Source: a virus
Direction: 5' to 3' (one strand)
Virus record (IMG/VR): IMGVR_UViG_3300008267_000033
Span: 64,001 to 128,000 of that record
DNA: 64,000 nt
Below are positions 14,350-42,875 of this stretch, piece by piece. Position numbers and translations under genes: made by a program. Position 1 is the stretch's first letter; every line of letters begins with the position of its first letter. A model generated the notes under the pieces. The model worked only from the letters and a program-made list of their open reading frames with translations, was not told where the DNA came from and ran no database searches.

Positions 14350-16530
14350 CTAAGGTAGGTGTGATCGGTTGAGTGATTCGTTCAGGCCTTGAATCACACG
14401 TTGTATTTGTTTGAGTTTTAGATAGTTCTGTTCAGCGTCACGGGCTGCATAGTAGGCCTGTCCGTCTGCACGTTCGTAGTTGGGATCTCTATTGAGTTCG
14501 GCTCTACGTACCAGTTCATCAATGTTGGGGTACTTTGCTGTCAAGTCACGTTGCATTTTTTCAGCATCTTGTGCAGGTGGTGTGTATGGTTGGCGTCTAG
14601 CATCTGCACTGGCCAGGCCTTTGGTTCTGTTGGCAATGGTTCGATCGGCAGCAGCGACTTTTGTAGGATCATCACGGTCAAAGAATCGGTTGGTCTGAGC
14701 CATGGCCCGACTCATCATGGCTTTTTTACCATAGTCGCCTAGGCTGACTTCTGACACACCTTGTTTTCGCGAGTCGACATACGCTTTGTATTCTTTTTGT
14801 GCTGCTTGATGCACTGTATGATTTGTAGTGAAATCTTTATACTTGTCGCCTTGCGTCAGTACCCATGTGGCAAAGTCAAACCACTCGACCCCGGTATCAT
14901 TGTTTGCCTCTGCCACACCTTGCTCCGCAGTGACCACAGGTTTGCCACTTTTTCCTGTGTTGGCACCAAGTCCAGACACTTGGCCTTTGGTACCACGGCC
15001 ACCGGCTGCACCAATGTGTGCGGAACCTTGCCAACGTTCGCCTTTGCGTGGTTTGGCTGGTTTGAGTCGTTGTACTTGGCCACCACGTGCTAGGAATGCT
15101 GCCACAGCGTCATCGTCTTCCGCCATGCCTTGCTCTTTTTTGACAACAAAAACTATGTTTTGAATTCCAGTATTGGGGTCAGTGTATGTGCTCTTGAATA
15201 CTTTGCCGCCGTGTTGTTTAGCGTGATCAAATGCTTCTCGCTTGTTGTCAAATCTATTGGCAGGCGGACTGATCATTGGACTGGCTTCCTCTGCCAGGGA
15301 ACCTTTTGCTGCAATCTTTTGAGTTTCTGGTCCAACTTTGGCATAGCTATTCTTTGGATCATAGATACCAACTTTTCCACTTCTATCAGTGGCAATAGTA
15401 GCACCGTTGATCATTTTTTGTGTTGCAAATCTAGCTTCAGGATAACGATTCAATACTGATTCTTTCCATCTTTCTAATGACACAGCCATCAGTGGTTTTT
15501 GTGAGTTCATTGCCGAAGGTCTGGATGATGCCACTGCCCCGGCATTTTGTGGTACTGATTGTGGTCTGGGTTTTCCTGGCATGTAAACAGATCCGGACGT
15601 TACACCACCGGTTCGTTGTATGCCAGTGGCCTGTTCAGGATCTCTTACTATACTAACTTTTTCTTTAATAGCCAGTGGTTTGTTGGGTTTTGGCTCAACG
15701 TCAACTATATCATCGTTATTATTAGGCTTTGGTGGCTTAGTAGGAGCAGATAATTGCTGACTGGTGTGCCATTGATTTGCTTGTGGTCTAATTGGCTCGC
15801 CTGTATCTGGGTCAAAATTGGCCTGTGGGCTAGGTTGGGGTGCTGGTTCATCCTGTAGTTCTGATTCAGGTTTAGCTTTTTCTCTTTCTGCTTGACGCAT
15901 ATTGAATTCAGCTTTCATCTTATTCAATTCATGTGTGTCAGCATGAAGAATCTTTTCCATGTCTTGTTGGTGACCCATCTGTAACTTACGCAGATCATGC
16001 AAGTATTCTTTTTCAATCTTGGCTATTTCATGTTTGCGTTCAGCTTCGGTGTTGGCTTTTTCCCAAGCAAATCGTTCCATCTCCATTTTTTCTTTATGAA
16101 GTTGTTGACGCTGTGCTTCAAAGTCTTGTTTGGCCTGACGTTGTAATCCTCTTCGGTCAGATGCACTCATAGTTAATTCATCTGCCTGATCTAATTCTTT
16201 TACTTTTGCGGCATGTAGTATATCGTCAAGCTCTTCGCTACTCCAGCCATCCCATGTATACTGGCCGTGCCCTTCTTTATCTGACCACTTGTATTGACGA
16301 AACGGCGTCTTAAATCCGGCTTGTTGCAATGCTTTAGTTTTTTGGTTTGCATCCATCTCATCCCAACCCTGCAAGGCAGAATGGTTGACACCTTCCGCTA
16401 CACCTTGTTCATCAAGCCCGCGAGATTTGCGCCACCTGCGAATACTTTTGCCCTGATCACGTTTGGATCCAAGATCGCCAATGGCCTCCGCCGCGAATTT
16501 TTTGTTGTTGAATAAATCGTTGATGATCAT
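14350..16530 (-). CDS. Putative capsid-packaged polyprotein with four QGVAE motifs
   Basis: 726 residues of unknown function. The N-terminus MIINDLFNNKKFAAEA resembles a capsid-targeting peptide ending in an A-A-E/A site. EQGVAE-type motifs occur at residues 41-46, 466-471 (EQGMAE), 536-541 and 589-594 (KQGVSE) and divide the protein into modules. Residues 120-220 are a long charged coiled coil (QRQQLHKEKMEMERFAWE), followed by a Pro/Gln/Asn-rich linker (220-340). After that come a beta segment with NGATIATDRSGKVGIYDP and basic Gly-rich pieces (KPAKPRKGERW). The mix of coiled coil, disorder and basic patches fits an internal head or scaffold-core protein. It is separated from the next gene upstream by 2 bases. 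Confidence 0.6.
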   Translation of the reverse strand: MIINDLFNNKKFAAEAIGDLGSKRDQGKSIRRWRKSRGLDEQGVAEGVNHSALQGWDEMDANQKTKALQQAGFKTPFRQYKWSDKEGHGQYTWDGWSSEELDDILHAAKVKELDQADELTMSASDRRGLQRQAKQDFEAQRQQLHKEKMEMERFAWEKANTEAERKHEIAKIEKEYLHDLRKLQMGHQQDMEKILHADTHELNKMKAEFNMRQAEREKAKPESELQDEPAPQPSPQANFDPDTGEPIRPQANQWHTSQQLSAPTKPPKPNNNDDIVDVEPKPNKPLAIKEKVSIVRDPEQATGIQRTGGVTSGSVYMPGKPRPQSVPQNAGAVASSRPSAMNSQKPLMAVSLERWKESVLNRYPEARFATQKMINGATIATDRSGKVGIYDPKNSYAKVGPETQKIAAKGSLAEEASPMISPPANRFDNKREAFDHAKQHGGKVFKSTYTDPNTGIQNIVFVVKKEQGMAEDDDAVAAFLARGGQVQRLKPAKPRKGERWQGSAHIGAAGGRGTKGQVSGLGANTGKSGKPVVTAEQGVAEANNDTGVEWFDFATWVLTQGDKYKDFTTNHTVHQAAQKEYKAYVDSRKQGVSEVSLGDYGKKAMMSRAMAQTNRFFDRDDPTKVAAADRTIANRTKGLASADARRQPYTPPAQDAEKMQRDLTAKYPNIDELVRRAELNRDPNYERADGQAYYAARDAEQNYLKLKQIQRVIQGLNESLNRSHLP
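14749..14766 (-). repeat. QGVAE repeat copy, KQGVSE
   Basis: Codons AAA CAA GGT GTG TCA GAA at residues 589-594 of the 726-residue protein. This is the only copy with Ser in place of Ala. Confidence 0.75.
14908..14925 (-). repeat. QGVAE repeat copy, EQGVAE
   Basis: Codons GAG CAA GGT GTG GCA GAG at residues 536-541 of the 726-residue protein, at the border between a Gly-rich basic segment and an aromatic module. Confidence 0.8.
15118..15135 (-). repeat. QGVAE repeat copy, EQGMAE
   Basis: Codons GAG CAA GGC ATG GCG GAA at residues 466-471 of the 726-residue protein, followed by an acidic DDD stretch. Confidence 0.8.
16393..16410 (-). repeat. QGVAE repeat copy, EQGVAE
   Basis: Codons GAA CAA GGT GTA GCG GAA at residues 41-46 of the 726-residue protein, closing a very basic N-terminal segment (RRWRKSRG). 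Confidence 0.8.
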
Positions 16531-23309: not shown

Positions 23310-23666
23310 TTATTTTCCTGCCACTGCCAAGCCAGCGCCTTTGTTGAAGCTGGGGCTCCATGAATTGGCTTGACGCAGGCCTCGACGTTTTGACCAGTCA
23401 TATCCTGCACGATGTCCTGAACAGTCTTTGGTGCATTCAGATCCCAGGAAGCTGAGTTCTCGCAGTTGATCACGGGTCCACTTGTCAGGAATCACACCGT
23501 GTTTGGCCACAAACTTGTCATGCAATTGCTTGCCAGTAATGCCGTGGTCACGAGCAATGGTTTGCATCATGTGGTCAATTGCACTGTAGCTTTTGGGATC
23601 ATCAAGATCTTTTTCCAAGTCTTCTACTGCATCTTCTTTCAAATGTACAAACTCTTGTGCTCTCAT
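23310..23666 (-). CDS. Small basic phage protein, possible packaged cargo
   Basis: 118 residues. The N-terminus MRAQEFVHLKEDAVEDLE is an acidic amphipathic peptide that could serve as a capsid-targeting sequence. The C-terminus has CTKDCSGHRAGYDWSKRRG and SWSPSFNKGAGLAV, a basic conserved module I associate with phage virion-internal proteins. It overlaps the 458-residue motif-bearing gene by 4 bases. No enzyme motif. Confidence 0.55.
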   Translation of the reverse strand: MRAQEFVHLKEDAVEDLEKDLDDPKSYSAIDHMMQTIARDHGITGKQLHDKFVAKHGVIPDKWTRDQLRELSFLGSECTKDCSGHRAGYDWSKRRGLRQANSWSPSFNKGAGLAVAGK

Positions 23667-25039
23667 TTTTTAGGTTGAACTGCTGTGGGCATGTTGCGAT
23701 ACTGTCGCCGGGCAGGATCGTACACAGTCTTCATGGGACCAAGTCCGGCCAGTTTTTTTACTCTGGCAACCATGTCATCGTATTCATCATCATAGTCAAC
23801 TTCTTTTGGGTCACGATAGTCAGCACCCTTTTGTTGCTCGCCTTCCTCTACACCTGGTTGTTTTTGATCTTGCTGTTGTGCCCATTGAGCAATTTTTCCA
23901 AAAAGTGTGTCAGGAACACCAGAATCCTTAGCAGCCTTTGGATCTCTAATATCAACTACGTTGATGGTTCTATCGGCCAATGGGCCGCTTGCTTGAATAG
24001 GGCCACCTGATGCAATTGTTGCGGCACCTGTATATTTTTTCTCTGGATCATTTAGTCTTTGATCTAATCCCAATTGTTTAGCGGCTGCAGGAGCCAAGGG
24101 TTTTATATCAATAAATGATGCTGAATTACTTGCAGTAGATAAATCTTGGTTGCGACGCCAATTGGCTGCGACGTATGTACCATTGGCCAATCTAACATAA
24201 GTGGTCACTGGTGCAAACATATCTAATTCATTTAAGTTATCTTCCGCCACATCTTGTTCTCTCACACTACTGCGGAAAAGTCTGGCATCATTTGCATCGT
24301 GTTTGCCGCGTTCTAATCCTTTTTCCCACTCGTCGTATTTGCGAGCTTCTCGTGTGGCACTGTAAGGATTGTCCTTGATGGTCTTGCGTTCTTGGTAGGC
24401 TCTACGGCCCAGTTCGTATGCCACACCCACACCGGCCAGTTCATACTCTTCCGCCACACCTTGCTCTCTGACGCTAAGTTTATCAGCAGGATTGCCACCA
24501 CCAAACATATTGCCGAAAGCATCACGGGCACGTTGTTGAGTTTGTTTTTGCTGCTCTTTGCGATCTGCGGTCTTTTGTTTATTAGTGCCCTGTTTGATAG
24601 TTGTCATCATTTTGTCAAAAGGTTTATCACCGGTAGCCTCCGCCACACCTTGTTTCAAATAGCCCCATTCGTCCTTGCTTGTACAGTCACGCTTGGCAAT
24701 GTCTCTACCTTTAAGTTGATCTTCTCTGCGCTTGTCGCCGGCGGCACGTAGTTTAACAACCTTGCCATCATCTTTATTAGCAAGACGACTTGCGGTATTG
24801 ACCATGGCATTGCTTTTGTCTTCCGCCACGCTTTCTGATTTGTTGCCATAGTTGCCAGCACCTTTTTTGCGGCACTGTACCAAGCGTCCGGATGCATAGG
24901 CCGACGGCCATACCTTGGCACTTGCTTTGACTTTGTGATAGCAGGCGTCTTTCTTTTCAGCCAGGATCAAATCACTGAAACTGATGCCACCGCATTCGGG
25001 GCACTGTTGTGGGGCTTCAAAAAGTTCGTCTATGATCAT
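23663..25039 (-). CDS. Putative capsid-packaged polyprotein with four QGVAE motifs
   Basis: 458 residues. The start MIIDELFEAPQQ is a near-ideal T4-type capsid-targeting peptide (L-F-E/A). A CPECGG element precedes a basic module (residues 30-60, KKDACYHKVK ... VWPSAYASGRLVQCRKKG) that recurs in phage proteins. Motifs SESVAE (68-73), KQGVAE (129-134), EQGVAE (192-197) and EQDVAE (261-266) split the rest, with a degenerate PGVEE near 398. The piece after residue 267 is beta-rich (TTYVRLANGTYVAANWRR). The C-terminal region is acidic then basic. Best reading: an internal head protein cut into several small peptides. Confidence 0.6.
   Translation of the reverse strand: MIIDELFEAPQQCPECGGISFSDLILAEKKDACYHKVKASAKVWPSAYASGRLVQCRKKGAGNYGNKSESVAEDKSNAMVNTASRLANKDDGKVVKLRAAGDKRREDQLKGRDIAKRDCTSKDEWGYLKQGVAEATGDKPFDKMMTTIKQGTNKQKTADRKEQQKQTQQRARDAFGNMFGGGNPADKLSVREQGVAEEYELAGVGVAYELGRRAYQERKTIKDNPYSATREARKYDEWEKGLERGKHDANDARLFRSSVREQDVAEDNLNELDMFAPVTTYVRLANGTYVAANWRRNQDLSTASNSASFIDIKPLAPAAAKQLGLDQRLNDPEKKYTGAATIASGGPIQASGPLADRTINVVDIRDPKAAKDSGVPDTLFGKIAQWAQQQDQKQPGVEEGEQQKGADYRDPKEVDYDDEYDDMVARVKKLAGLGPMKTVYDPARRQYRNMPTAVQPKK
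24242..24259 (-). repeat. QGVAE repeat copy, EQDVAE
   Basis: Codons GAA CAA GAT GTG GCG GAA at residues 261-266 of the 458-residue protein, marking the start of its beta-rich module. Confidence 0.8.
24449..24466 (-). repeat. QGVAE repeat copy, EQGVAE
   Basis: Codons GAG CAA GGT GTG GCG GAA at residues 192-197 of the 458-residue protein; this copy equals the consensus at every base. Confidence 0.85.
24638..24655 (-). repeat. QGVAE repeat copy, KQGVAE
   Basis: Codons AAA CAA GGT GTG GCG GAG at residues 129-134 of the 458-residue protein, before a Lys/Gln-rich helix. Confidence 0.8.
24821..24838 (-). repeat. QGVAE repeat copy, SESVAE
   Basis: Codons TCA GAA AGC GTG GCG GAA at residues 68-73 of the 458-residue protein. 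Only the last four codons follow the consensus, directly after the basic VWPSAYASG module. Confidence 0.65.
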
Positions 25040-25389
25040 TTCTTTTTAGTGGCCACGTTGATGGCCTTTCCTGTACGGTTGGGGTTGGGATCTTGTCTGC
25101 GTTTTCTTGCGGCTGCTGATGCGCGACCTTTTTTGCCCAGTGCATTGGCCTTGGCCCGGGGCAGGCACTTGGGCTTGCCTTCTGATTCTGATCCTCTGGC
25201 ACAGTCTCCACGGATCTTGCCGTCAGGACCAAAGCGTACCCATTTTTCTTTGAACCAATTGCGGAGATTTTCTTCTAACTCAGCTTCGCGCACAGGCACA
25301 CAGTTGGGCACCTGACGACCACCTTTGTTTTTCATACCTGCTTGGCGATAACCAGTCCAACAGGCTTCAAGAATTTCTTTGTAAGTCAT
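25036..25389 (-). CDS. DUF5872-like basic protein with capsid-targeting-like start
   Basis: 117 residues. MTYKEILEACW fits the T4 capsid-targeting pattern with an I-L-E/A site. The rest (WVRFGPDGKIRGDC, EGKPKCLPRAKA, KRRQDPNPNRTGKAINV) matches DUF5872-type proteins of large viruses and phages, which are very basic with conserved cysteines. A DNA- or RNA-contacting role in the virion is plausible. Overlaps of 4 bases with both neighbours link it to the cargo cluster. Confidence 0.65.
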   Translation of the reverse strand: MTYKEILEACWTGYRQAGMKNKGGRQVPNCVPVREAELEENLRNWFKEKWVRFGPDGKIRGDCARGSESEGKPKCLPRAKANALGKKGRASAAARKRRQDPNPNRTGKAINVATKKK

Positions 25390-26049: not shown

Positions 26050-27213
26050 TCAGTGAAACATTAAAAATTGGTTGGCCACGTCCAGTCGGCTTGCACCCAA
26101 ATCGCCATGACCTGCAGGGAACACCACAACGTTCCATTTGGGAGCAGGCCCTTCGGGTATGCGATTCATTTCGTCATATGTGATCACAGTGTTGGGATCA
26201 ATTTTGTACTTGGCACCCAGATCCTGGCGGAACTGTTGCCAGGCGTCTGCGCTTTTTACCTGTGTGCGTCCTTTTTCGTCTTTCACATACTTGCCCTTGG
26301 CATCGGTCACAAACAACTCACGGAACATGTCTTTGGGCAGGGTCACAGCGTCTTTCACATGCCGGCCGGCATCTCGTTGTAGTTGAACTGTTTTGACTTC
26401 GCGACTTTGTGCACCTGGTGAAAACTGTTTGACCACGTTGTCCGGCGTGTCAGGGTCTGTAACTATTTGCCCCATCTTGGTGTAGAAGTAAAATTTCACA
26501 TCAGGATTGTTCCGGGCCACATCCATCATCAAGTTGTAGTATTCTTTTGAGAAGAAGTCACCAGCGTCATGTATGCGCACCAGTAGTTTGATGCCATTCT
26601 TGCTGGCCAATGCCGCGGCTTTTTTGACTTCGCTGTCGAACTTCTCCATGTAGTCTGACGGATGATTAACCAGGAAGTTTAGTGCCTGTGCCGCACTCAT
26701 TGAGCTGGCTGGGAACATCACATAGCCGCCTTTTCTGGCATAGCAGTAGGTCTGGCATTCGCCAGCACCGGGGCAGGTGATCACTTCCACAAACTCACCA
26801 GTTTCTTCATCCACCACAATGCCACTCAGGGCTGGCAAGGTCAAGTCATATGTGATGGCGCCTTCCTCTTTGCTCTTGGCCATTTTGGCATTGGTGCCCA
26901 GGATCTGTCTTGGCGGCTGCATGATCTGACTTTTTAAATCGTCTAGGTCCCACTCAGTACCACCGTCATCTCGAGTGATGGCCTTGATATTGCTGCCGTG
27001 TATGATGGGCTTGAATCGGTCAGCCTTGGTCTTGGTACCAGTTTTGATACGAGTTGCATAGTCTTGCATGTCTTGGGCGGACATAGACCGTTGTGGTGCA
27101 TCCAGTTTGAGTGCTTCGTCTGTGGCACCTTGTTCCACATTCAATACTTTGGCAGGAAATCCACCCAGGGTTCGGCCACGTTCAGCAGCTTCTACAATTT
27201 GTCTTATTCTCAT
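26050..27213 (-). CDS. GP88-family protein with capsid-targeting-like N-terminus
   Basis: 387 residues. The N-terminus MRIRQIVEAAERG carries an I-V-E/A site. CPGAGECQTYCYA (C147, C153, C157) followed by RIHDAGDFFS and KFYFYTKMG is the signature of the GP88 family of phage proteins, whose function is unknown but whose Cys pattern and strand order recall a metal- or cluster-binding barrel. Residues 26-33 read VEQGATDE, a possible degenerate QGVAE copy. It is coupled to the 1129-residue gene by a 4-base overlap. Confidence 0.7.
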   Translation of the reverse strand: MRIRQIVEAAERGRTLGGFPAKVLNVEQGATDEALKLDAPQRSMSAQDMQDYATRIKTGTKTKADRFKPIIHGSNIKAITRDDGGTEWDLDDLKSQIMQPPRQILGTNAKMAKSKEEGAITYDLTLPALSGIVVDEETGEFVEVITCPGAGECQTYCYARKGGYVMFPASSMSAAQALNFLVNHPSDYMEKFDSEVKKAAALASKNGIKLLVRIHDAGDFFSKEYYNLMMDVARNNPDVKFYFYTKMGQIVTDPDTPDNVVKQFSPGAQSREVKTVQLQRDAGRHVKDAVTLPKDMFRELFVTDAKGKYVKDEKGRTQVKSADAWQQFRQDLGAKYKIDPNTVITYDEMNRIPEGPAPKWNVVVFPAGHGDLGASRLDVANQFLMFH

Positions 27214-30200
27214 TTTCTTTTGGCCTTTGCTCTTCCGGCTTTCATGTTGGCCAGCCAGTGGGCCATGCGTTGCTTTTCACCTGACGAATTCTTTGCTGTC
27301 TTGCGCAAACTGCTGACTGACGCTTTGGTATTTACTCCTGAGCGTTTGGCTAGACCTTTGCGCCCAGGATTCTTGCCATCGGCAAAGTTTTCCGTGACAC
27401 CTTGCTCGTGTAGTCCAAATGCGTCACGAATGATATTTAACAACTCGCTTACACTTGCGTCTGTAGTGGGCAATACGTCTTTGAAAGCATCATCCAAATA
27501 AGGGTCGCCGTCTTCTACAGTACCTAACGCATAGCTAAACATGCCATTACCTTGATTGGCGATCAACATTATGTACCATTGATCATCTGTTTCTTGTCCT
27601 TTGGCAGTAAACAAGAAAGTATCTTCTCCCTCACGTTTACCGTTCCAACCAGTAGCTTTCATTGCACTGTTAATTTTGTTAACAACTTCTGGCCATGATA
27701 AAACATTTCCCAGTGCTGCTTCTGTTACACTTTTGTTGGCATTTCTTAATATCTCAATGACTTTCTCACCGGCTGTTTTTATTGCTTGATCAAGTCCCAT
27801 CTCCTTGGCTTGTTTCTCAGTTTTACCCAAGAAAGGTCGGAGCATACTTTTAGCAACATCTAACCTGGCCTTGACCTCTGCAGGATCTCCGTAACGTATT
27901 TGTTGTCGTTGTCGTTCTCTATCATAGTCTCCGTTGTACATGATGGCATCAGCCAACTCTTGTATATCGTATTGTCTGGCTTTTACTTTTGGATTACGAT
28001 TGACAAACATCTTGTGTTGTCGTATAATCCTTGGATCTAGTACTACACCTTGTGTTGGTTCATTATAAGCAATCCAGCCCGCACCGGGATCATATACACT
28101 GGTGAATCCCAAATCACGCAATACTTTGTTCCAACGAACGATATTGGTTTCATCGTTTGTGCCTAGTCTACTCAAGCAGTCGTAAATCATCCAGTATGGC
28201 GTATCATCATACAATGAATCTGGTTCATCTAATACTTGTTGTATTATTTTTTCAGGGCAGTATTGACTCAGGGCTTGACGTAATTGAGCAGGATCGACTT
28301 GGGTTTGCTGAGTCATTTCATTCGAACGGTCGTATTGAAACAACTGCATATAGGGCATGTTATCTCCCCATGGCAGTGGTTGATAACGGTTGACCATCTG
28401 TATAAAGTATTCCAATGGATAAAAGTAAATACCCTTGGGAGTGTCTTCACTGATGCCCACTTGCGGATTGATCCCCAACTTGGGCTCAGCAGTCATGCTA
28501 ACACCCCAGTTTTCTTGGTCTCTGATATCTTCAGCAAATGCAGCCAGCTCATATTTACCCATCCCATATTTTTTATTCTGATCTGGGTTTTTACGTGCTT
28601 CCGCCATGCCTTGCTTGTTGGACCAAAGCAATTGGCCTTCTTCTTGTGCTATGAGGTGTATGTTGTATCCTGGATGGGTGGGTTGTATGTCATGGTTGTC
28701 AAAGTGAGAAGATAGTTTTTGTAATATTCTTACCACGCCAAGATACTGATCACCCACAAGATCATCAGGTACCACTACCAAGATATCAGTGTCACTGTTT
28801 TTACGATGTTTTCCTGTAGCACGACTGCCATGGAACCAAATTTCTTGTGCTATGGGCATGACTTTGAGTATGGCATCAACCACTGGCTGGCCTGGTTGTT
28901 TGCCCTCCGCCACGCCTTCTTTGACCACAGCAGGCACAGTTTCATCGCCCAGCAAGTTCAACAAAAATGTTCTGTGATGGCCGTCTTGCAAGTGATACGA
29001 GCCATCAGGCAGGGCAGACACTGTGATGGGATTCTTTTGTACAAATTGTCTTAGACGTTGTTGTGCCGCAGGGTCAGCTTTCAATGCATCCACCAGTTGT
29101 CTCATGCTCATGTCTGGTGACACTTGCATGCCAGCAGCGTGGGTCAACACATCTGCTGCTTGCTCAATGTTCACCCCTTGTGTGCCAATGGCACCGTTGG
29201 CTCTGCGCACATTAGCAATGGGAAAATTCTCAATGTCTTCACGCAGGTTCACAGTCTTCATCAACAGTCCAGGCTCGCCATTGCGACCTGTGTTCAAGGC
29301 CAGTTTGTTGGCTTCTTTGCCAGTCTGTCCAGGTTTGATATCCACACTCAGAGCCATGGCATATTGTGGCATGGCTGCTTCACGCTTGTTCTTGGGAATG
29401 TACCCTGAGGCGCCTTCTTCCAATGAATCACGGGCAAAATGTTCAGGATGAGAGTTGGCCCAGTCACGCATGATGATGCCTGCTCTGGCGTTGGCATCAT
29501 TTTCCCACCGACTGCCAGTTTCGCCTGCGTCATCTGGTAACTGACCATGTTGTTGATTTTGTGAGCAGTGAACTAATTCATGTGCCACTGTGCGCAACAC
29601 GTCCATGACATGGCGATTGGGCATGCTTACATTTAGTGTGTGTGATTCTGGATCGTAACGTCCAAAACTTTGATTGCGTTCGCTCCACTCAGGATCAGTG
29701 TGCAAATGAATTTCAGGTGCAGGATCTATGCCCAGCTCTGTTGTGACGTGTTTAATAAAGTCCTGCACAATGTTGTCATCAGATTCAGAGTCTTCCAAGA
29801 AAGACTTGGTACTGGCAGCAACACCATCCGACGTGCTGTAAGGCTGACTCTGCATGCCTTCACCGAAGCCGTAACGAAACCGTTGTCGAGGTGCTTCACG
29901 CAGACTCAGTTTGCGATCTTGTGCGGCTCTACGTGCGTCCCACAGCAGTTTTATACAACCACTATTGCGCAAGATTTTAAACGCAAGATTTTCACAGCCA
30001 AACTCGCCTTGTTGTTCAAGTCCTGCCTGCCGCATGGCCTTGATTTTGTCGGCCAAGGTGGCCATTTTAGATTGATCTCCTGAACGCACAGCATCGTGAA
30101 TACGTGCGTCCAAGTCTGCAACTTTGTCACGCACACACGCATCATCTACCCTGGCACGTTTGCGTTGGGGTATGGAGATCCAGCTATTGTGTTGCACTGA

Positions 30201-30599
30201 ATAAATGCCCAGGCTGATGTGTGGTTGATCAGCAGGCTGAACATACAGTTCTACATCGGCACCACCAATTTTTATGTTGTGCTCGTTGTTGTATTGATAT
30301 TTCTTGGCTGAAAACAGTTCCTGATACACAGGATCATCAGGCATTGTGACCACAATGTGCAGGTCAATATCTGAGTTTTTTGTATAAGAGTAGGCTGCGT
30401 TTGAGCCTGATATGGTGATGTCTTCGACGTCAAGATCTTTGACACCCAAAAATTCTTGAAAGTCTTCAGCAATGGTGAGTAGTCGTTCACGCACTTCAGG
30501 AAGCAACTGCTCGTCTCGCCCCCAGATTCTGGGATTGAGACGGCGGTGAAACTTTACTGCGTCGCCAAGATTGTAAGAGTCCAACTCATGAATGTTCAT
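27210..30599 (-). CDS. Giant modular putative capsid cargo polyprotein (nucleotidyltransferase, metallopeptidase-like, ParB-like)
   Basis: 1129 residues. Residues 55-130 are a nucleotidyltransferase-like domain (GSNAAYSYTKNSDIDL, D77/D79). Residues 290-400 have a zincin-like HELVH (H340-E341-H344) with ENDAN downstream. Residues 515-557 resemble a ParB/sulfiredoxin-type domain (LQDGHHRTFLL). KEGVAE (560-565) then leads to a second nucleotidyltransferase (FHGSRATG, D603/D605), and KQGMAE (662-667) to a long region including LGFTSVYDPGAGWIAYNEPTQGV. After HEQGVTEN (motif at 1065-1070) comes a basic tail (DGKNPGRKGLAKRSG ... MAHWLANMKAGR). Putative cleavage at the motifs would release four parts. 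It could be a toxin-antitoxin-like or host-takeover effector set; function is inferred. Confidence 0.6.
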   Translation of the reverse strand: MNIHELDSYNLGDAVKFHRRLNPRIWGRDEQLLPEVRERLLTIAEDFQEFLGVKDLDVEDITISGSNAAYSYTKNSDIDLHIVVTMPDDPVYQELFSAKKYQYNNEHNIKIGGADVELYVQPADQPHISLGIYSVQHNSWISIPQRKRARVDDACVRDKVADLDARIHDAVRSGDQSKMATLADKIKAMRQAGLEQQGEFGCENLAFKILRNSGCIKLLWDARRAAQDRKLSLREAPRQRFRYGFGEGMQSQPYSTSDGVAASTKSFLEDSESDDNIVQDFIKHVTTELGIDPAPEIHLHTDPEWSERNQSFGRYDPESHTLNVSMPNRHVMDVLRTVAHELVHCSQNQQHGQLPDDAGETGSRWENDANARAGIIMRDWANSHPEHFARDSLEEGASGYIPKNKREAAMPQYAMALSVDIKPGQTGKEANKLALNTGRNGEPGLLMKTVNLREDIENFPIANVRRANGAIGTQGVNIEQAADVLTHAAGMQVSPDMSMRQLVDALKADPAAQQRLRQFVQKNPITVSALPDGSYHLQDGHHRTFLLNLLGDETVPAVVKEGVAEGKQPGQPVVDAILKVMPIAQEIWFHGSRATGKHRKNSDTDILVVVPDDLVGDQYLGVVRILQKLSSHFDNHDIQPTHPGYNIHLIAQEEGQLLWSNKQGMAEARKNPDQNKKYGMGKYELAAFAEDIRDQENWGVSMTAEPKLGINPQVGISEDTPKGIYFYPLEYFIQMVNRYQPLPWGDNMPYMQLFQYDRSNEMTQQTQVDPAQLRQALSQYCPEKIIQQVLDEPDSLYDDTPYWMIYDCLSRLGTNDETNIVRWNKVLRDLGFTSVYDPGAGWIAYNEPTQGVVLDPRIIRQHKMFVNRNPKVKARQYDIQELADAIMYNGDYDRERQRQQIRYGDPAEVKARLDVAKSMLRPFLGKTEKQAKEMGLDQAIKTAGEKVIEILRNANKSVTEAALGNVLSWPEVVNKINSAMKATGWNGKREGEDTFLFTAKGQETDDQWYIMLIANQGNGMFSYALGTVEDGDPYLDDAFKDVLPTTDASVSELLNIIRDAFGLHEQGVTENFADGKNPGRKGLAKRSGVNTKASVSSLRKTAKNSSGEKQRMAHWLANMKAGRAKAKRK
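27390..27407 (-). repeat. QGVAE repeat copy, EQGVTE
   Basis: Codons GAG CAA GGT GTC ACG GAA at residues 1065-1070 of the 1129-residue protein, exactly before its basic C-terminal module. Confidence 0.8.
28599..28616 (-). repeat. QGVAE repeat copy, KQGMAE
   Basis: Codons AAG CAA GGC ATG GCG GAA at residues 662-667 of the 1129-residue protein, at the end of the second nucleotidyltransferase module. Confidence 0.8.
28905..28922 (-). repeat. QGVAE repeat copy, KEGVAE
   Basis: Codons AAA GAA GGC GTG GCG GAG at residues 560-565 of the 1129-residue protein, between the ParB-like and second nucleotidyltransferase modules. Confidence 0.8.
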
Positions 30600-31606: not shown

Positions 31607-32254
31607 TTACGACCGACGTTCTTCCACGTAGTCTTCATAAGTGGCAGCCCAGCCTTGGTTCTCAGCAACTTCTGTGCCAATTGCTGTGTCTAGCATTTTG
31701 ACCACATTAGCGGCCAACTTGGGATTGCTTTGTGTCTTGGGATACAAGCTCATTATCAGGGCAGTTTTTCGTTTTTCATTCAGCTGAGGCCATGCTGCGC
31801 GGATTTCTGAGGCTGATGTCATGCCAGGTCCAAACTCCACAGTGGGCAAATAGGCCATGTAACCTTGTTGACTCATGGGTGCTGTGGAGTTTTTGTTGTA
31901 GGGCTGTAGATATGAAGGTTCACCGTTCTTTTTGACACCGCCGGGTCGGGGAGGTTTGTCTGCATCCTTTTGACTGCGAACAAAGATCAACTGTGTGTCT
32001 TCAGCATTGTATGGTGCTGTGATCTCAGTGGCTTGAAAAGGGCTTTTGACTTGCATGAATCTGCCTTTGTCTACCCCGGCTAACTGTGCTAGTTTTTCTT
32101 TGATCTGAAAAGGAAAAGGCCGAGCGCTGGTGTCGTTGGTAGCAGCCACATACACATCAGCGCCGGGAAATGCTGCTTTCGCTGACTGATACAAGGCAGC
32201 ATGTCCTGCGTGAAAAGGGTGAAAGCCACCGGGCATTATAACAACTTGTTTCAT
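31607..32254 (-). CDS. Nucleotidyltransferase-fold protein (HxGH, NMNAT/cytidylyltransferase-like)
   Basis: 215 residues. GGFHPFHAGHAALY contains the H15-A-G-H18 motif of the nucleotidylyltransferase superfamily, and TSASEIRAAW is like the C-terminal S-x-S-x-x-R region that contacts triphosphate. Such enzymes adenylate or cytidylate NMN, phosphopantetheine or polyols. The middle (PRPGGVKKNGEPSYLQPY) is unusual. The protein may act in NAD supply during infection or in activated-sugar formation; I cannot choose. Confidence 0.7.
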   Translation of the reverse strand: MKQVVIMPGGFHPFHAGHAALYQSAKAAFPGADVYVAATNDTSARPFPFQIKEKLAQLAGVDKGRFMQVKSPFQATEITAPYNAEDTQLIFVRSQKDADKPPRPGGVKKNGEPSYLQPYNKNSTAPMSQQGYMAYLPTVEFGPGMTSASEIRAAWPQLNEKRKTALIMSLYPKTQSNPKLAANVVKMLDTAIGTEVAENQGWAATYEDYVEERRS

Positions 32255-33255: not shown

Positions 33256-33948
33256 CTATTTAGTCGTTTGAATGGGCATGGTCTTTCTTACAATGCCCGG
33301 CATCACTAGACTGATCATGGTGCCTTCGTTGGGATGATCATGATCCACAAAATAATGAGCTCGGGAGTAGTTGAGATTGTACCTAAAACTGCTGCTGCCT
33401 TTGAGCCATGCAATCAGTGCATCACAAGGTTGAAGTGTATCTTTTCTTGAATTTAAAAAATTAACCAGCATGGTTCGTTGTTCAAGACCGTATTTGCGTT
33501 CTCGAAGATATGTTCTGTAAGCATATTTTGATTCACGCAGTTGCACAACATTAACTGGTCGGGTGAGCACTGCCTGTCGTACCAGTCGAATCCTGACCCC
33601 GTCATTGCCCAGCGTGACCAATCGGTCAGCCAGGCCACGATGATTGGTGTACACGCTCACTGTCATAAAACTAACCACAGTTTTGAATGGTGCAATTTCG
33701 GACAAAAGCACCTCACGAGTTTCACGCAGGGCAGTTTCTTTGGTAATGCTCCAGGCTCGATTAGACCATCGATCACTCTCAGCCCAATGTTTGGCATTGA
33801 CAATGGCTCGTTCAAACTGAGAGGCATCCAGATTTCTCAAGCAAACAGCCTCTGAGATGTTGATGGTTATGCACCATTCATACTGAGCATAATACAGACT
33901 GCTACGATCGTCTAATTCAACTTTATACAACAATGATACCCTCAGCAT
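33256..33948 (-). CDS. Conserved phage protein, unknown function
   Basis: 230 residues, not recognised. The first third is beta-rich, the middle has a helix-rich Arg/Glu stretch (TALRETREVLLSEIAPFKTVVSF, RESKYAYRTYLRERKYGLEQ), and the end carries HYFVDHDHPNEGTMISLVMPG. It overlaps the end of the upstream clpA gene by 26 bases, so it is probably made together with it. Confidence 0.6.
   Translation of the reverse strand: MLRVSLLYKVELDDRSSLYYAQYEWCITINISEAVCLRNLDASQFERAIVNAKHWAESDRWSNRAWSITKETALRETREVLLSEIAPFKTVVSFMTVSVYTNHRGLADRLVTLGNDGVRIRLVRQAVLTRPVNVVQLRESKYAYRTYLRERKYGLEQRTMLVNFLNSRKDTLQPCDALIAWLKGSSSFRYNLNYSRAHYFVDHDHPNEGTMISLVMPGIVRKTMPIQTTK
33257..33264 (-). promoter_or_regulatory. Late-type promoter box ACTAAATA, 7 nt before ATG
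   Basis: Minus-strand ACTAAATA that includes the TAG stop of the 230-residue gene, then seven bases, then the ATG at 33249. Confidence 0.45.
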
Positions 33949-36178
33949 TTACAGTGCTCACTGCATCCTGTTCTATCATGAACTCCACAGCATCCGCCTT
34001 CATCACTGCTGTGATCATGCAGTTTTCCAATCGATCAAACAACATCTGCTTTGACAACGGCACACGGATCAGTTCATCAATCTTGCGTGATAAAGGCCGT
34101 GCGCCCATTTTTGAATCGTATCCTTTGTCAGCCAAGTGATCAATCACAGGCTCAGTCAACACTAAGCGGATATTTTTGTGTGTCATGCTGGCCTTGAGTT
34201 CGTCCACAAACTTCACAACAATCTTCTTGATAGCAAGTGTGTCTAACTTGGTGAACTTGCAGATCCGGTCAATACGATTGCGCAGTTCTGGACGGAAGAA
34301 GTCTTTCATTGCACGATCTTCTTCGCCTGACTTCTCCAGGCTACCAAAACCAATGTTGTTGGCATCGTTGGCCTGTGCGCCTAGATTAGACGTCATGATG
34401 ATGATGCAGTTCTTAACATCTACTCGTTTGCCATTTGCTGAAGTAATGTGCCCTTCATCCAACATCTGCAACAGGATGTTGGTCACATCCGAGTGTGCTT
34501 TTTCAATTTCATCGAACAATATTACAGCATAAGGGTTCTTGCTGATATCAGAGATCAGTTTGCCACCGCCTATGTTGCCATCTTCAAAGCCCACGTAGCC
34601 GGGAGGTGCACCGATTAGGCTTGACACTGTGTGCTTTTCTTGATACTCACTCATGTCGTAACGCAACAGTTTCATTTCCAAGTGTTCGCTTAGGAGTTTG
34701 GCCAGTTCAGTTTTGCCTGTGCCTGTTGGACCAAGGAACAAGAAACTGCTGATGGGACGTTTTGCATTACCAATGCCAGCAAAATTAATGTACACACGTT
34801 CCAGCACAGCCTCCACAGCTGAATCTTGTCCGTACAATTTCTGTTTGATGTTGCTTTCTAAGTCCACAATCTTTGCACTTCGTTCATTCTGCAGTCGGTC
34901 CACTGGCACACCAGCCACGCGGCTTACCTGTGCTTGGATCATTTCTTTGGTAACTGTAACAGTGCCTTCGTCTTTCACACGCTCACGTGCGCATGATGCG
35001 TCCAGCAAGTCAATGGCTTTGTCAGGATTTTTACGATCGTGAATGTAACGATTGGCCAGTTCTACCGAAGCCATGATAGCATCAGTGTCAATCATGACAT
35101 CATGAAACTTTTCCAATCTAGGACTTAATCCAATCAAGATCTTTTCTGTGGTGTCCGTATCAGGCTCGTCGATACTGAGTCTGTAGAATCTGCGCATGAG
35201 TGCGCGATCTTTTTCAAATGATTCGTAGTATTCTTCCCATGTGGTTGATGCTATCACTTTCAAATGGCCTTTGGTGATTGCGGGTTTTAACATGTTGGCA
35301 AAGTCTAGGCTGCTGTTTGAGCCAGAGCCTGCACCTTTCATGGTGTGTGCTTCGTCAATGAACAGGATACATTTTTTCTTTGTCTCCAAGGCAGCAATTA
35401 CAGCCTTGAATTTTTCTTCAAACTCACCACGATACTTGGATCCTGCCAACAGCGATCCAATCTCAAGACCCCATACTTCGTGATCTTGAATGAACCGGGG
35501 CACACGTCCGGCAATGATCTCCTGCGCTAAGCCGTCCACAATACAGGTCTTGCCCACACCAGGATCGCCTACCATGAGCACGTTGGCTTTGAAGCGTCGA
35601 GCCATCACAGTGATCATTTCGTGCAGTTCAGTCTGACGTCCAATCAAGGGTTCCAACTGATCATTCTTGGCCTGTTCAGTCAAGTTGGTACAGTACTCGT
35701 TCAAGATGTCATTGGCTTGATTCATGTTCATCTTGGATGCTTCACCAGCTGTGTAATTCTTGGCAAAGAACTCAGAGAATTCAGTCTTCTTCACACCATA
35801 TTTCAACAAGAAGTAGTGTGCATGACTGTTGGTTTCAGCCATGATGCTCAAGTACAAATCCAATGTGGTCAAGGTTCTACGTCCTGTGAACATGACCTGC
35901 ACATTAGCACGGTTGAACAAGCGTTCCAGGGTTTGTGTTTTTCTTGGTTGCAAATTTACATCGTCTTTGACGATGCCTTTCATGCCGTTCAAATAAACAT
36001 TTATTTCTTGATCCATTTGTTTGACCTCTACACCAAACCGATCTAGAATTTTATGAAATGGTGCATGCCTAATCAAACTCAACAGCACATGTTCTGTTGT
36101 GACATATTCGTGCAATTTCTCACGAGCAATTTTTACTGCTTGTTCTACAATGTGTTCAATTTCGGGATTGTTTTGCAT
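33923..36178 (-). CDS. clpA: ClpA-type AAA+ unfoldase
   Basis: 751 residues, the size of bacterial ClpA (758). It has a ClpN domain (residues 1-140), first AAA+ module with Walker A GDPGVGKT (204-211) and Walker B FIDEAH (around 275), and second module with GPTGTGKT (483-490), FDEIEKAH and the sensor-2 GARPLSRKI. An I-G-F tripeptide at 609-611 lies in the loop where ClpA docks onto ClpP (IGL/IGF), so this protein could associate with host ClpP and redirect proteolysis. No ClpP gene is present in the window. A strong sigma70 promoter precedes it, suggesting early expression. Confidence 0.93.
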   Translation of the reverse strand: MQNNPEIEHIVEQAVKIAREKLHEYVTTEHVLLSLIRHAPFHKILDRFGVEVKQMDQEINVYLNGMKGIVKDDVNLQPRKTQTLERLFNRANVQVMFTGRRTLTTLDLYLSIMAETNSHAHYFLLKYGVKKTEFSEFFAKNYTAGEASKMNMNQANDILNEYCTNLTEQAKNDQLEPLIGRQTELHEMITVMARRFKANVLMVGDPGVGKTCIVDGLAQEIIAGRVPRFIQDHEVWGLEIGSLLAGSKYRGEFEEKFKAVIAALETKKKCILFIDEAHTMKGAGSGSNSSLDFANMLKPAITKGHLKVIASTTWEEYYESFEKDRALMRRFYRLSIDEPDTDTTEKILIGLSPRLEKFHDVMIDTDAIMASVELANRYIHDRKNPDKAIDLLDASCARERVKDEGTVTVTKEMIQAQVSRVAGVPVDRLQNERSAKIVDLESNIKQKLYGQDSAVEAVLERVYINFAGIGNAKRPISSFLFLGPTGTGKTELAKLLSEHLEMKLLRYDMSEYQEKHTVSSLIGAPPGYVGFEDGNIGGGKLISDISKNPYAVILFDEIEKAHSDVTNILLQMLDEGHITSANGKRVDVKNCIIIMTSNLGAQANDANNIGFGSLEKSGEEDRAMKDFFRPELRNRIDRICKFTKLDTLAIKKIVVKFVDELKASMTHKNIRLVLTEPVIDHLADKGYDSKMGARPLSRKIDELIRVPLSKQMLFDRLENCMITAVMKADAVEFMIEQDAVSTVNAEGIIVV

Positions 36179-36204
36179 GATGTCCTTGAGTAGTCCTATG
36201 AGTT

Positions 36205-36233
36205 ATTATATGCTATTTTGCTATTGGGTGCAA
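36205..36233 (-). promoter_or_regulatory. Sigma70-type promoter for clpA
   Basis: TTGCAC (36233-36228), 17 bases, TATAAT (36210-36205) on the minus strand; AAGGA occurs before the ATG at 36178. This is the same -35/-10/spacing combination as the clamp promoter. Confidence 0.75.
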
Positions 36234-36250
36234 CCTGTGCTGTGCCAAAA

Positions 36251-36258
36251 TATTTATT
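36251..36258 (-). promoter_or_regulatory. Possible late promoter box AATAAATA
   Basis: Minus-strand AATAAATA overlapping the dnaJ TAA stop, about 70 bases before the clpA ATG. It would give clpA a second, late start. Confidence 0.35.
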
Positions 36259-37039
36259 CATGGTGCTTTTGAATAACATCAATGATTTCGGGTGCAATGT
36301 TGTCTGGAATTGATGCCTGCAACTTTATAAGAATGTCTCCGGTGTTGCCATGGCGATCCCGTAGTCCTTGTGCTTTTAATCTTAACACAGTTCCAGGTTG
36401 TGTTCTAGCAGGTACTCGAGTGCTCAATGTTTTTCCAGTTAAGGTGTTTATGGTAAGATCACCGCCCAGGATCAAATTCCAAATGTCAATTCGGACTTCC
36501 TGTGCAAGATTCAGTTTATCACGCTGCCAAGTTTGATTCGGACTTACTCTAAATTGTGCCACCAGGTCAGCACCGCCCGGACCAATGCCTTCGTACTGCA
36601 CATTGTCACCGTCATTGATGCCCAAAGGTATGTCAATTTCCACTGCACTCACACCGCTTTGTGTGCCCAGGCTCACTGTGCGTTTGCCACCAGTGGCCAC
36701 ATCCAGCAATGAGATCCACAATGTCATTCTCACATGACTGCGACGAGGATGTTGATGTTGTTGTGCAAACTGCTGCCCGAACATTTGCCCAAAGATGTCA
36801 TTGATGTTTACGCCACCCGGATGTCCTTGGAATCCCGAAAACTGTGGTCTGGGATTGTCATACTCGGCACGTTTTTGTTCGTCACCCAGTGTGGCATAGG
36901 CTTCCTGTATGGCCTGAAACTTTTGAGTGTCGCCACCCTTGTCCGGATGGTGCTGACTGGCCAACTTACGAAAGGCTCGTTTGATATCGTCAGCAGTGGC
37001 AGTTTTTGGCACGCCTAGTGCGGCGTAGTAGTCGGTCAT
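36254..37039 (-). CDS. dnaJ: DnaJ/CbpA-type co-chaperone
   Basis: 261 residues. The J-domain (1-65) has the HPD tripeptide in [10 protein letters not shown] Gly/Phe/Gln-rich linker with [14 protein letters not shown] follows, then two C-terminal beta-barrel substrate domains ([40 protein letters not shown]). There is no zinc-finger region, so it is of the type B/CbpA class. It should recruit host DnaK. Together with ClpA and the GroES-like protein it forms a phage proteostasis set. It is driven by a consensus promoter with an operator-like dyad. Confidence 0.93.
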
Positions 37040-40367: not shown

Positions 40368-40655
40368 TTATTTTATGTTGTTGAATATTTGTTGTTGTTT
40401 TTGATACCATTCAATCCAGGCATCTGTTTTGACAGCACACTCATAGTAGGTGCCGTAGTTCACAGTCACAGTCCTTGATATGTCACTTAGACGGGCATCA
40501 TCAGGAATTTTTTGCAGTTGTGGACAGGCCGTCATGGCCACGTTGCCCGGTGCTTCGGGGAACCGTGCTGTTACAGGTACTACTGTACTGCATCCAGTGG
40601 CAAGGAATGCCAGTATCACAAACACCACTAGAAAGAACAATTTAATCGAATGCAT
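40368..40655 (-). CDS. Outer-membrane spanin-like lipoprotein (Rz1-type)
   Basis: 95 residues from the ATG at 40655, which overlaps the preceding stop as TGATG. Signal peptide with lipobox LATGC (Cys22), then a Pro-containing segment and NYGTYYECAVKTDAWIEWYQ. As an o-spanin it would sit in the outer membrane and pair with the i-spanin at 41380-41838. It is longer than lambda Rz1 but similar in plan. Confidence 0.7.
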   Translation of the reverse strand: MHSIKLFFLVVFVILAFLATGCSTVVPVTARFPEAPGNVAMTACPQLQKIPDDARLSDISRTVTVNYGTYYECAVKTDAWIEWYQKQQQIFNNIK

Positions 40656-41383
40656 CAGCAGTTCCAACGACGTCGTGCTTTGCATATGGCTTTGTCAGGA
40701 GTCTTGGCACAACTGATGCTGTGCATTTTCATTTGTCCACGACTGCGGCTGCAATAACTCTTTCTACGCTTGGATGCCTTGCCACCTTTTTTGAGTTTGC
40801 CAGGTTTGGTGGTTACAGCAGTTTTTAGTTTTGAGCCAGGATTTTCTCTGCGGTAAGCATTCACAGCCTTTTGACTCATGCCATCTGTCTTGTCACGTTT
40901 GTTGGCTTTTTGCCAGTCTTCCATCACACCTTGCTGACTGTACATATCCATCAGTTGTCGAATATAGAAATTATAAAAACCACGACGGCCGTTGTATTCT
41001 CTGTCTCCAAGCACAGTCTTTAGTGCGGCTACAGCATCATTTACTTCCGAACCACGCATTATTTTTAGTGCATCCGTCACAAGTGAATCAACTTGTTGTG
41101 TGTCTTCCGCCATGTCTTGTGATTCCATGATGGGCTCTGAAGTCACAGCAAAAGCATACAGTTCATCTTCGGTGAGTGTTTCCAAATCTTCCCAGATCAC
41201 TTCAGCATCCACACCGTTGTGTTGGGCCAGACGTTCAATGATGGATTCGATAAGATCAAACTCTTCCTCAAGTTCTACACTTTCGTTCTTGGGCTTCTTG
41301 CCAGCTTTTTTCATTGCAATGGCCGTTGCAGCCTGTTGTGGATGTGCCGACTTGGCTTCTGCTAAGATTTCATTAATTTTCAT
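40655..41383 (-). CDS. Putative capsid-packaged protein with two QGVAE-like motifs
   Basis: 242 residues. MKINEILAEAKSAH is almost identical in pattern to the T4 internal-protein targeting peptide, with an I-L-A-E/A site. Motifs SQDMAE (88-93) and QQGVME (150-155) separate an acidic first half (ELEEEFDLIESIIERL, EDLETLTEDELYAF), a middle helix bundle, and a very basic tail (KKGGKASKRRKSYCSRSRG ... CKARRRWNC) that recurs in phages. An acidic pro-part and basic DNA-contacting tail fit a core protein cut on maturation. It lies, oddly, between the two spanin genes. Confidence 0.65.
   Translation of the reverse strand: MKINEILAEAKSAHPQQAATAIAMKKAGKKPKNESVELEEEFDLIESIIERLAQHNGVDAEVIWEDLETLTEDELYAFAVTSEPIMESQDMAEDTQQVDSLVTDALKIMRGSEVNDAVAALKTVLGDREYNGRRGFYNFYIRQLMDMYSQQGVMEDWQKANKRDKTDGMSQKAVNAYRRENPGSKLKTAVTTKPGKLKKGGKASKRRKSYCSRSRGQMKMHSISCAKTPDKAICKARRRWNC
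40919..40936 (-). repeat. QGVAE repeat copy, QQGVME
   Basis: Codons CAG CAA GGT GTG ATG GAA at residues 150-155 of the 242-residue protein; Met replaces Ala before the last Glu. It precedes the basic C-terminal module. Confidence 0.7.
41105..41122 (-). repeat. QGVAE repeat copy, SQDMAE
   Basis: Codons TCA CAA GAC ATG GCG GAA at residues 88-93 of the 242-residue protein; followed by an Asp as in several other copies. Confidence 0.7.
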
Positions 41384-41851: not shown

Positions 41852-42875
41852 GAAGTAGCAATAGGTCATGTGTGTTGGTAGGCAGTTTGTCTAAATGATG
41901 CACATTCAGATGCAGTCTATTTTTGTAAACTAACTCATGCAACAAATAAACCTCATCAAATATATCAAAATTCAACTCACTCCAGTCTTTGTCTTGTCCC
42001 TGCTGTATTGCCTGTATAATTTCTTTGTGTTCTTGATCCCTGTGCATTGTGGTCTGTAATTTAGACCATTGACCTAGTACATTGTGTGCCGGCGCTGTTG
42101 ATCCCACGGCCAAATGATCAAACATGTGTTGAATTGATTCCAAGGTATTGTCACGCAGTTGATCTAGAGATATAAATCTTATCTTGGGAAACTGTGCTGG
42201 TAACAGAGCCCAATGACTCACATAGTCCGAAAACTCATATCTAATAGACTGTGCCATTACGGTACGCAACTGTCCCAGGGAAAGATTTTGAGTTTGATCA
42301 CATTGAAATTTATTCATCAAGCGTTGGTACCAGGCTCGAGATTCATAATAACTCATTTGTATTTTGGCTCGTTCAATAGGATCCTCGGCAGTCAACCAAG
42401 CCTGGGACGAGATCATTATTTGGGCCTCTTCACTGCCCGGAGCAAAACTGTTGATTTTTTTGTCATACATACCAGGTGACCAAACAACTTTTTTGCAGTT
42501 GTTGTGCCACCACCAAATCTTACTAGTAACAGTTGGATATATTACACAGACCTGTACTGAATAATTTTGAAAATATTGCAGATGACCATGAGTCAAGTTG
42601 TAATAAAAATTTGACAGCCCTTTTTCATTGAACATTTTGCCGTTGTGGTCCAAGGGCCAGATACATGATACCACTGTGTCATACTGAGTACTCACAAAAT
42701 CACGGTAACATTGTGGTGTGACCAACAGTTTGTATTGATCTGACAGCACATAGCCGTGGCTGTTGCCATCGGTGTGAAACGGCAAATTTTGCTCTTGCAA
42801 CTCTGCAGGGGTGTTACACAACCACTGTAAAAAAGTGCCGTAGCAACCTGTGGGATAATATATTAGTTTATTCAA
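41847..42875 (-). CDS. Sulfotransferase-like protein of unknown function (family B)
   Basis: 342 residues. YYPTGCYGTFLQWLCNT at the start resembles the P-loop region of sulfotransferase-like phage proteins, with FISLDQLRDNTLESIQHMFDHLAV and QWSKLQTTMHRDQEHKEI later, where sulfotransferases bind the 3'-phosphate. It is a distant relative of 3682-4572. Substrate unknown. It is coupled to the glutamine amidotransferase gene by a 4-base overlap. Confidence 0.5.
   Translation of the reverse strand: MNKLIYYPTGCYGTFLQWLCNTPAELQEQNLPFHTDGNSHGYVLSDQYKLLVTPQCYRDFVSTQYDTVVSCIWPLDHNGKMFNEKGLSNFYYNLTHGHLQYFQNYSVQVCVIYPTVTSKIWWWHNNCKKVVWSPGMYDKKINSFAPGSEEAQIMISSQAWLTAEDPIERAKIQMSYYESRAWYQRLMNKFQCDQTQNLSLGQLRTVMAQSIRYEFSDYVSHWALLPAQFPKIRFISLDQLRDNTLESIQHMFDHLAVGSTAPAHNVLGQWSKLQTTMHRDQEHKEIIQAIQQGQDKDWSELNFDIFDEVYLLHELVYKNRLHLNVHHLDKLPTNTHDLLLLR

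Follow-up and report, generated by a model that had tools for sequence, protein, structure and literature searches.

A modular polyprotein gene of a T4-like freshwater phage whose module borders resemble prohead protease sites

Polyvalent proteins, encoded by phages and conjugative elements, combine 2–15 disparate domains and are predicted to be injected into the host together with the DNA (Iyer et al. 2017, PMC5512222). In the available portion of that paper, zincin, ParB-like, GNAT, kinase and nucleotidyltransferase (NTase) domains are among those described, conjugative elements are the only carriers named for pol-beta NTases, and processing of the chain is credited to embedded zincins, an autoprocessing that was proposed also for DdrB of phage P1 and for other proteins. 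A related mode of delivery is known from phage T4. Its Alt and IPI-III proteins are effectors packaged in the head and ejected from it, which carry a short N-terminal propeptide and are cut at L/I-X-E, the motif of the gp21 protease; the capsid-targeting sequence (CTS) has 10 residues (PMC9026906). Alt is cut by gp21 at both ends, at ITE-6 and LTE-619 (PMC5694885). From purified virions of the cyanomyovirus S-CREM2, mass spectrometry identified gp154 (a cytidylyltransferase), gp156 and gp160 (PMC10665884, Table 3), with the authors' proviso that carry-over is possible in CsCl-purified virions. Polymorphic toxin systems, according to the available part of their description, diversify by recombining effector cassettes and swap C-terminal domains (PMC3482391).

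Here we describe a phage gene encoding a chain of 1129 amino acids (aa), probably a polyvalent cargo protein that a freshwater T4-like phage packages in its capsid, that its prohead protease cuts and that is reassorted at a shared joint.

Domain composition of the 1129-aa protein

The analyzed window is a stretch of 64,000 nucleotides (positions 64,001 to 128,000 of IMG/VR record IMGVR_UViG_3300008267_000033). On its minus strand, within a dense array of genes of the same orientation, an ORF of 1129 aa (27210..30599) starts with ATG and runs without interruption, in agreement with a preliminary description of this DNA. Profile matches and alignment define it as a modular polyprotein gene, with full-length relatives in loci L002, L003, L004, L005, L010 and L013. 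All motifs named in the preliminary description were found: GSNAAY (residues 65–70), SDIDL (76–80), HELVH (340–344), LQDGHHR and GSRATG...SDTD. The modules and joints distinguished below are all encoded on the minus strand.

The chain opens with the peptide MNIHE|L (residues 1–5, 30585..30599), which has the form of a CTS or propeptide and is a candidate capsid-targeting/propeptide site, comparable with the ITE-6 cut of T4 Alt; IxE is present here in 9 of 10 sequences. It is followed by NTase1 (residues 6–235, 29895..30584), a Pol-beta/aminoglycoside-adenylyltransferase-like module matched by PHROG 36119 over residues 14–232 (1.2e-37), and by a zincin-like metallopeptidase module (residues 236–395, 29415..29894). 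Residues G65, S66, N67, D77, I78 and D79 of NTase1 and H340, E341, L342 and H344 of the zincin are invariant in 10 of 10 aligned sequences. The AlphaFold model of residues 1–460 is modest (pLDDT 63). The best Foldseek matches of this model were aminoglycoside adenylyltransferases (AAD(9), E 3.8e-4, with low TM-scores), while VIA-align matched it to zincins: YbeY-like 1oz9 (Z 9.4, 102 residues, 2.6 Å), Wss1 (Z 8.9) and SprT-like 6mdx (Z 8.8); minigluzincins were matched as well.

The next module, SGYIP (residues 396–454, 29238..29414), has LEE| and LRE| at its ends and recurs in differing contexts. The ParB-like module with LQDGHHR (residues 455–561, 28917..29237) was recognized by the PHROG ParB-like profile (6.8e-05); its match to Pfam ParBc_2 (PF08857) lies below the cut-off (0.11; 13.0 bits versus 23.6), and the copy in L010 reaches 0.0014. 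The ParB-like domain proposed in the preliminary description is weak by sequence. Joint EGVAE (GAAGGCGTGGCGGAG, residues 561–565, 28905..28919) leads to NTase2, an MntA-like minimal nucleotidyltransferase (residues 566–667, 28599..28904), which is the best stretch for the Pfam matches of the whole protein (NTP_transf_2 1.7e-11; Polbeta 3e-10). With its GS...DxD motif and 44.8 bits against a cut-off of 21 (best stretch 585–626), the protein falls within the Pol-beta NTase superfamily (NTP_transf_2). Residues 587–637 also match model residues 10–56 of the NCBIfam MntA antitoxin family NF047752 (4.8e-9), with 36.1 bits below the curated cut-off of 60. NTase2 is thus similar to the MntA-type antitoxin adenylyltransferases at a sub-cut-off level, but is embedded in a polyprotein, and no HepT partner was seen.

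Joint QGMAE (CAAGGCATGGCGGAA, residues 663–667, 28599..28613) is followed by U1 (residues 668–960, 27720..28598), which has no Pfam match and is preceded by other modules in L007, and by U2 (residues 961–1065, 27405..27719), whose relatives, among the loci examined, occur only within the same virus. An ADP-ribosyltransferase assignment of U1, considered on account of GIYFYP...VVLDP, was dropped for want of Pfam or NCBIfam support. The last joint, EQGVTE (27390..27407; QGVTE at residues 1066–1070), precedes the basic NFADGK tail module (residues 1071–1129, 27213..27389), for which no match was found across the phage record collection. A PDB sequence search gave no match to the N-terminal part of the protein and only weak Mnt-type rows for the remainder. 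The model of residues 459–1129 is poor (pLDDT 47) and its fold matches were left out of account, so U1 and U2 carry no fold assignment.

The 1129-aa chain is therefore composed of several biochemically disparate domains joined in one polypeptide, as are polyvalent proteins, and it contains the zincin-like metallopeptidase that is a common, non-obligatory hub of that class. The preliminary description held in part; the two more striking features, module swapping between phages and a joint conserved in its DNA, were not among its observations. Its two nucleotidyltransferases agree with the Pfam and NCBIfam matches, the invariant residues and the structural matches, and its zincin-like motif with the invariant HExxH and the zincin folds. 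Its view of the protein as fused toxins or host-takeover effectors was not supported as worded, and for the architecture, which it did not recognize, there is a described class of multi-domain proteins predicted to be injected (PMC5512222). Among the polyvalent proteins listed there pol-beta NTases are confined to conjugative elements, whereas here they are found in a T4-like phage.

Module exchange and the motif at module borders

Relatives of the protein in public viral contigs keep NTase1, the zincin and usually SGYIP, while the remainder differs. The modules swapped in include an amidoligase-like one (L003, L004), GNAT (L002), cytidine deaminase with LysM and GH19 chitinase (L010), and others; L001 is the same virus in a different assembly. 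The ParB-like module and NTase2 (28599–29237) are 98–99% identical to those of L002, compared with approximately 75–81% in other shared parts, so this exchange looks recent. To judge from these alignments, the protein is combinatorial, and the 1129-aa chain is one of its forms. Polymorphic toxins, in the available part of their description, exchange C-terminal domains, whereas here many internal positions are involved and a joint resembling a cleavage site is rebuilt each time.

The same joints occur in two further genes of the window (minus strand), which the preliminary description did not include. The first, of 458 aa (23663..25039, N-terminus MIIDELFE|A), contains joints QGVAE (CAAGGTGTGGCGGAG, 24638..24652), QGVAE (CAAGGTGTGGCGGAA, 24449..24463) and QDVAE (24242..24256). 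At the first of these, L002 fuses the same upstream module to NTase2; a module of the 458-aa gene lies in L002 between the ParB-like module and NTase2. The second, of 726 aa (14350..16530), has three joints (16393–16407, 15118–15132 and 14908–14922). Cassette genes with a similar N-terminal motif, also on the minus strand, are a small one (25036..25389, MTYKEILE|A) and one with a C-terminal DUF6321 (40655..41383, MKINEILAE|A). A GP88-like gene (26050..27213, minus strand, MRIRQIVE|A; Pfam 7e-31) may encode further cargo; with its T4 CTS-like start, it lies directly downstream of the polyprotein gene in the window and in L002, and one gene later in L010. In the cassette proteins of L001–L139, many short modules rich in Cys or Lys (KKDACYHKV, WFKxKWV, KWSxKYK) are found repeatedly in T4-like phages, from freshwater to marine ones.

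The borders of the modules were analyzed at breakpoints, i.e. positions at which the similarity of two proteins stops within each of them in an all-versus-all alignment of ORFs from the loci analyzed (728 after de-duplication). The motif [LIVM].E was found within 7 residues of 342 of the 728 cassette breakpoints, compared with 148 (sd 11) at random positions of the same proteins (z 17.5); unrelated proteins showed no clear excess (11/40 breakpoints, 7.8 expected). A residue-pair scan without prior assumptions placed V.E first, with L.E, I.E and M.E also enriched, and detected no enrichment of [LIVM].D or [LIVM].Q at breakpoints. Modules with a fixed start agree with this motif. Before the NFADGK module, in 19 independent upstream contexts, position −1 is E in 19 and position −3 is [LIVM] in 18 (F in the other), with positions −2 and −4 variable; the agreement is 14/14 for KWF, 9/9 for KWS and 8/8 for SFLGS, and SGYIP has [LIVM]xE at most 3 residues upstream in 8/8 contexts. 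At N-termini, [LIVM]xE is present in 105 of 220 cassette proteins versus 76 of 939 others. The QGVAE-type separators pointed out in the preliminary description thus appear, from the breakpoint enrichment and the anchored joints, to behave like cleavage sites.

The module borders match the L/I-x-E of T4 gp21, which suggests, at the sequence level, that the joint is a cutting site of the head protease. In the gp23 proteins of ten relatives (including that of G006), the maturation-site position is occupied by LxE followed by N or S in all ten cases, and LLTE|A of S-CREM2 gp23 aligns with FLTE|A of T4. The [LI]xE form expected of T4-type gp21 substrates is present at the borders, yet the commonest P3 residue at joints is Val, compared with Leu at every gp23 site of the relatives; in terms of sequence, this is the main weakness of reading the joints as head-protease sites. 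Some [LIVM]xE motifs (E35, E38, E45) also fall within folded regions and would need protection from cutting.

The chief rival to cleavage by the prohead protease is that the polyprotein is a classical polyvalent protein whose own zincin processes the chain, before packaging or after injection, with [LIVM]xE as its sites or as mere linkers. An intact HExxH always adjoins NTase1 in this family, and self-processing of this kind is what Iyer et al. propose, in the available portion of their paper. We nevertheless regard it as unlikely, given that the same joints are found in the 458-aa and 726-aa genes, where no zincin was detected, and in many unrelated contexts, and that Glu at P1 with an aliphatic P3 is the signature of gp21, seen also in gp23 of this lineage. 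The borders differ in this respect from those of polyvalent proteins, being marked by a motif of the prohead-protease type and a joint with conserved DNA; the available portion of PMC5512222 does not refer to a joint of this kind.

Conservation of the joint at the DNA level

All 8 QGVAE variants of the window are in frame and confined to three genes, and the coding-DNA joint motif has 8 matches in the window against 0.03 expected from shuffles. The DNA form of the QGVAE joint is CAAGGTGTGGCGGAAG, roughly 16 bp. At 65 QGVAE-coding sites in loci found by protein similarity, the codons are CAA GGT GTG GCG GAA nearly without exception. The Ala codon is GCG at 60 of these 65 joints, though GCG makes up 8% of the Ala codons in the genome (binomial tail approximately 1e-59 on the assumption of independent sites, which these are not fully). 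Even where the flanks of two sites are unrelated, the codon choice is the same in 86% of synonymous codons. When up to 2 mismatches were allowed, 142 contexts were found, 139 of them in frame, with borders sharp at 16 bases. Chance motifs were ruled out by shuffles and a reversed-pattern control. Coincidence in coding DNA was ruled out by comparison with bacterial genomes: among the matches listed, the exact CAAGGTGTGGCGGAAG lies within long ORFs, in the frame that reads QGVAE, at 110 of 112 phage-contig sites of the loci examined, while the same 16-mer occurs in mixed frames in bacteria, where 28 of 80 sites have this frame.

Among site pairs, 44 share the upstream module only and 62 the downstream module only, and these are chimeric; just 2 share both. 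In the pairs sharing the upstream module, nucleotide identity in 15-base bins is 0.84, then 0.97 at the joint, then 0.34 and 0.28, and the other set mirrors this profile. Identity breaks exactly at the motif, which indicates that exchange happens at the joint. Where flanks are homologous, synonymous identity is 0.63 in the flank and 0.90 in the joint (10 pairs, loci found by protein); a larger set of this kind is biased, because many of its sites were found via the motif itself. Such conservation of DNA may stem from selection acting on the site or from its continuous copying, and the two may act together. When ten large contigs were searched for site-specific recombinases as a cause, neither a tyrosine recombinase (PF00589) nor a resolvase (PF00239) was found; four of the ten carry a RecA/UvsX-like gene.

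The near fixation of the codons and the break of identity at the motif would also fit a joint acting purely at the DNA level, as a short homology for a phage recombinase, with QGVAE a neutral linker in a chain that stays whole. This we judge distinctly unlikely: other joints of differing DNA still give [LIVM]xE with variable adjacent residues, the same motif is found at N-termini, and nearly all copies stand in one frame. A tentative proposal, which we hold as a real possibility and not as a probable one, unites the two functions: CAAGGTGTGGCGGAAG would be a dedicated exchange joint, selected as DNA, phage-wide and in frame, serving efficient recombination, either through short homology or triggered by nucleases, and also encoding a prohead-protease site, and would form the basis of a modular-assembly system for injected effectors common to many large T4-like freshwater phages.

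A literature search on QGVAE returned mostly alpha-synuclein papers, with no phage paper among the matches listed, and no paper on such joints was found in the literature, of which subscription journals and preprints were thinly covered. As far as the literature examined extends, the combination of apparent head-protease-type borders, shuffling at multiple positions and a DNA-conserved joint seems to be undescribed.

Candidate virion cargo and its significance

Genes for gp21 and gp23 were not found in the contig that contains the window, a fragment of 146,212 b, so their co-occurrence with the joint rests on relatives. Both were identified in 9 of 15 large joint-bearing contigs and also in G006, which has a relative of NTase1 and the zincin.

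An indirect connection to virions is provided by S-CREM2. Its gp156, detected in virions, is homologous to NTase1 (35% identity over 227 residues, E 2e-37) but is a stand-alone protein, not part of a polyprotein, and gp160, likewise detected, has one module in common with the product of the 458-aa gene: KKDACYHKV...WGNKS, directly after EISE|, is 76% identical to residues 25–69 of the latter. The cytidylyltransferase gp154 is encoded two genes upstream of gp156; in the window, a cytidylyltransferase/NMNAT-like gene recognized by profile matches lies two genes upstream of the polyprotein gene (31607..32254, minus strand), with weak similarity to gp154 (E 0.013). S-CREM2 gp160 (L140, 15343–16236) also contains GFTGAAAPEGPVAGYDPLM, a near-copy of GFTGAAAPGGPNAGFDPVM, which follows LTE|A in the major capsid protein of the same phage (5482–6852). 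The comparison with T4 Alt drawn in the preliminary description is borne out by the processing of Alt and by the NTase1 homologue in virions. Alt and the IPs are, however, single effectors with terminal propeptides, whereas the 1129-aa protein is a multi-module chain with several internal candidate sites.

Further genes were noted in the window. ClpB/Hsp100-like ATPase and DnaJ genes are located close upstream of the cassette region (33923–37039), a gene at 42872–43411 has a class-I glutamine amidotransferase/peptidase C26 domain, and a phage-borne metabolic gene of host-like type at 44140–45105 codes for a periplasmic binding protein of the TctC type (Pfam 1.4e-24).

That the polyprotein is an unpackaged early or late intracellular enzyme of several domains, modifying host factors after its expression, seems very unlikely, since the purified virions of S-CREM2 contained gp156 and gp160 and the N-terminal motifs are like T4 CTS and propeptides, even though the homologues of S-CRM01 and DSL-LC02 sit among replication genes.

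Injected cargo processed by the prohead protease is the best explanation of the domains, module swapping, joints, border motif and DNA conservation seen in the sequences, together with the work of others on S-CREM2 virions, gp21 specificity in T4 and Alt processing; from these we infer cleavage at the joints, packaging of the 1129-aa protein and its activities. The N-terminal IxE|L-type peptide and the internal [LIVM]xE| sites would be substrates of a prohead protease of the gp21 type. As the head matures, the chain would be cut into about eight pieces: NTase1, the zincin, the SGYIP peptide, the ParB-like module, NTase2, U1, U2 and the basic tail. These would reach the host together with the DNA and act early, possibly by adenylylation (both NTases) and proteolysis (the zincin); the MntA-like NTase2 would perhaps neutralize HEPN-type toxins. 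Recombination at the in-frame CAAGGTGTGGCGGAAG of approximately 16 bp, encoding QGVAE, would rearrange modules between phages, and each exchange would restore both the reading frame and the cleavage site.

A joint that would serve both the swapping of modules and their release by a protease points to a naturally occurring plug-and-play system for cargo that enters the host with the phage DNA. If so, many T4-like phages, a large group, assemble their injected cargo from interchangeable modules, and the joint is a sequence handle for listing hundreds of uncharacterized injected effector modules and probably anti-defence factors. It would also mean that head proteolysis of the T4 type extends from the trimming of propeptides to the release of many proteins from one chain.
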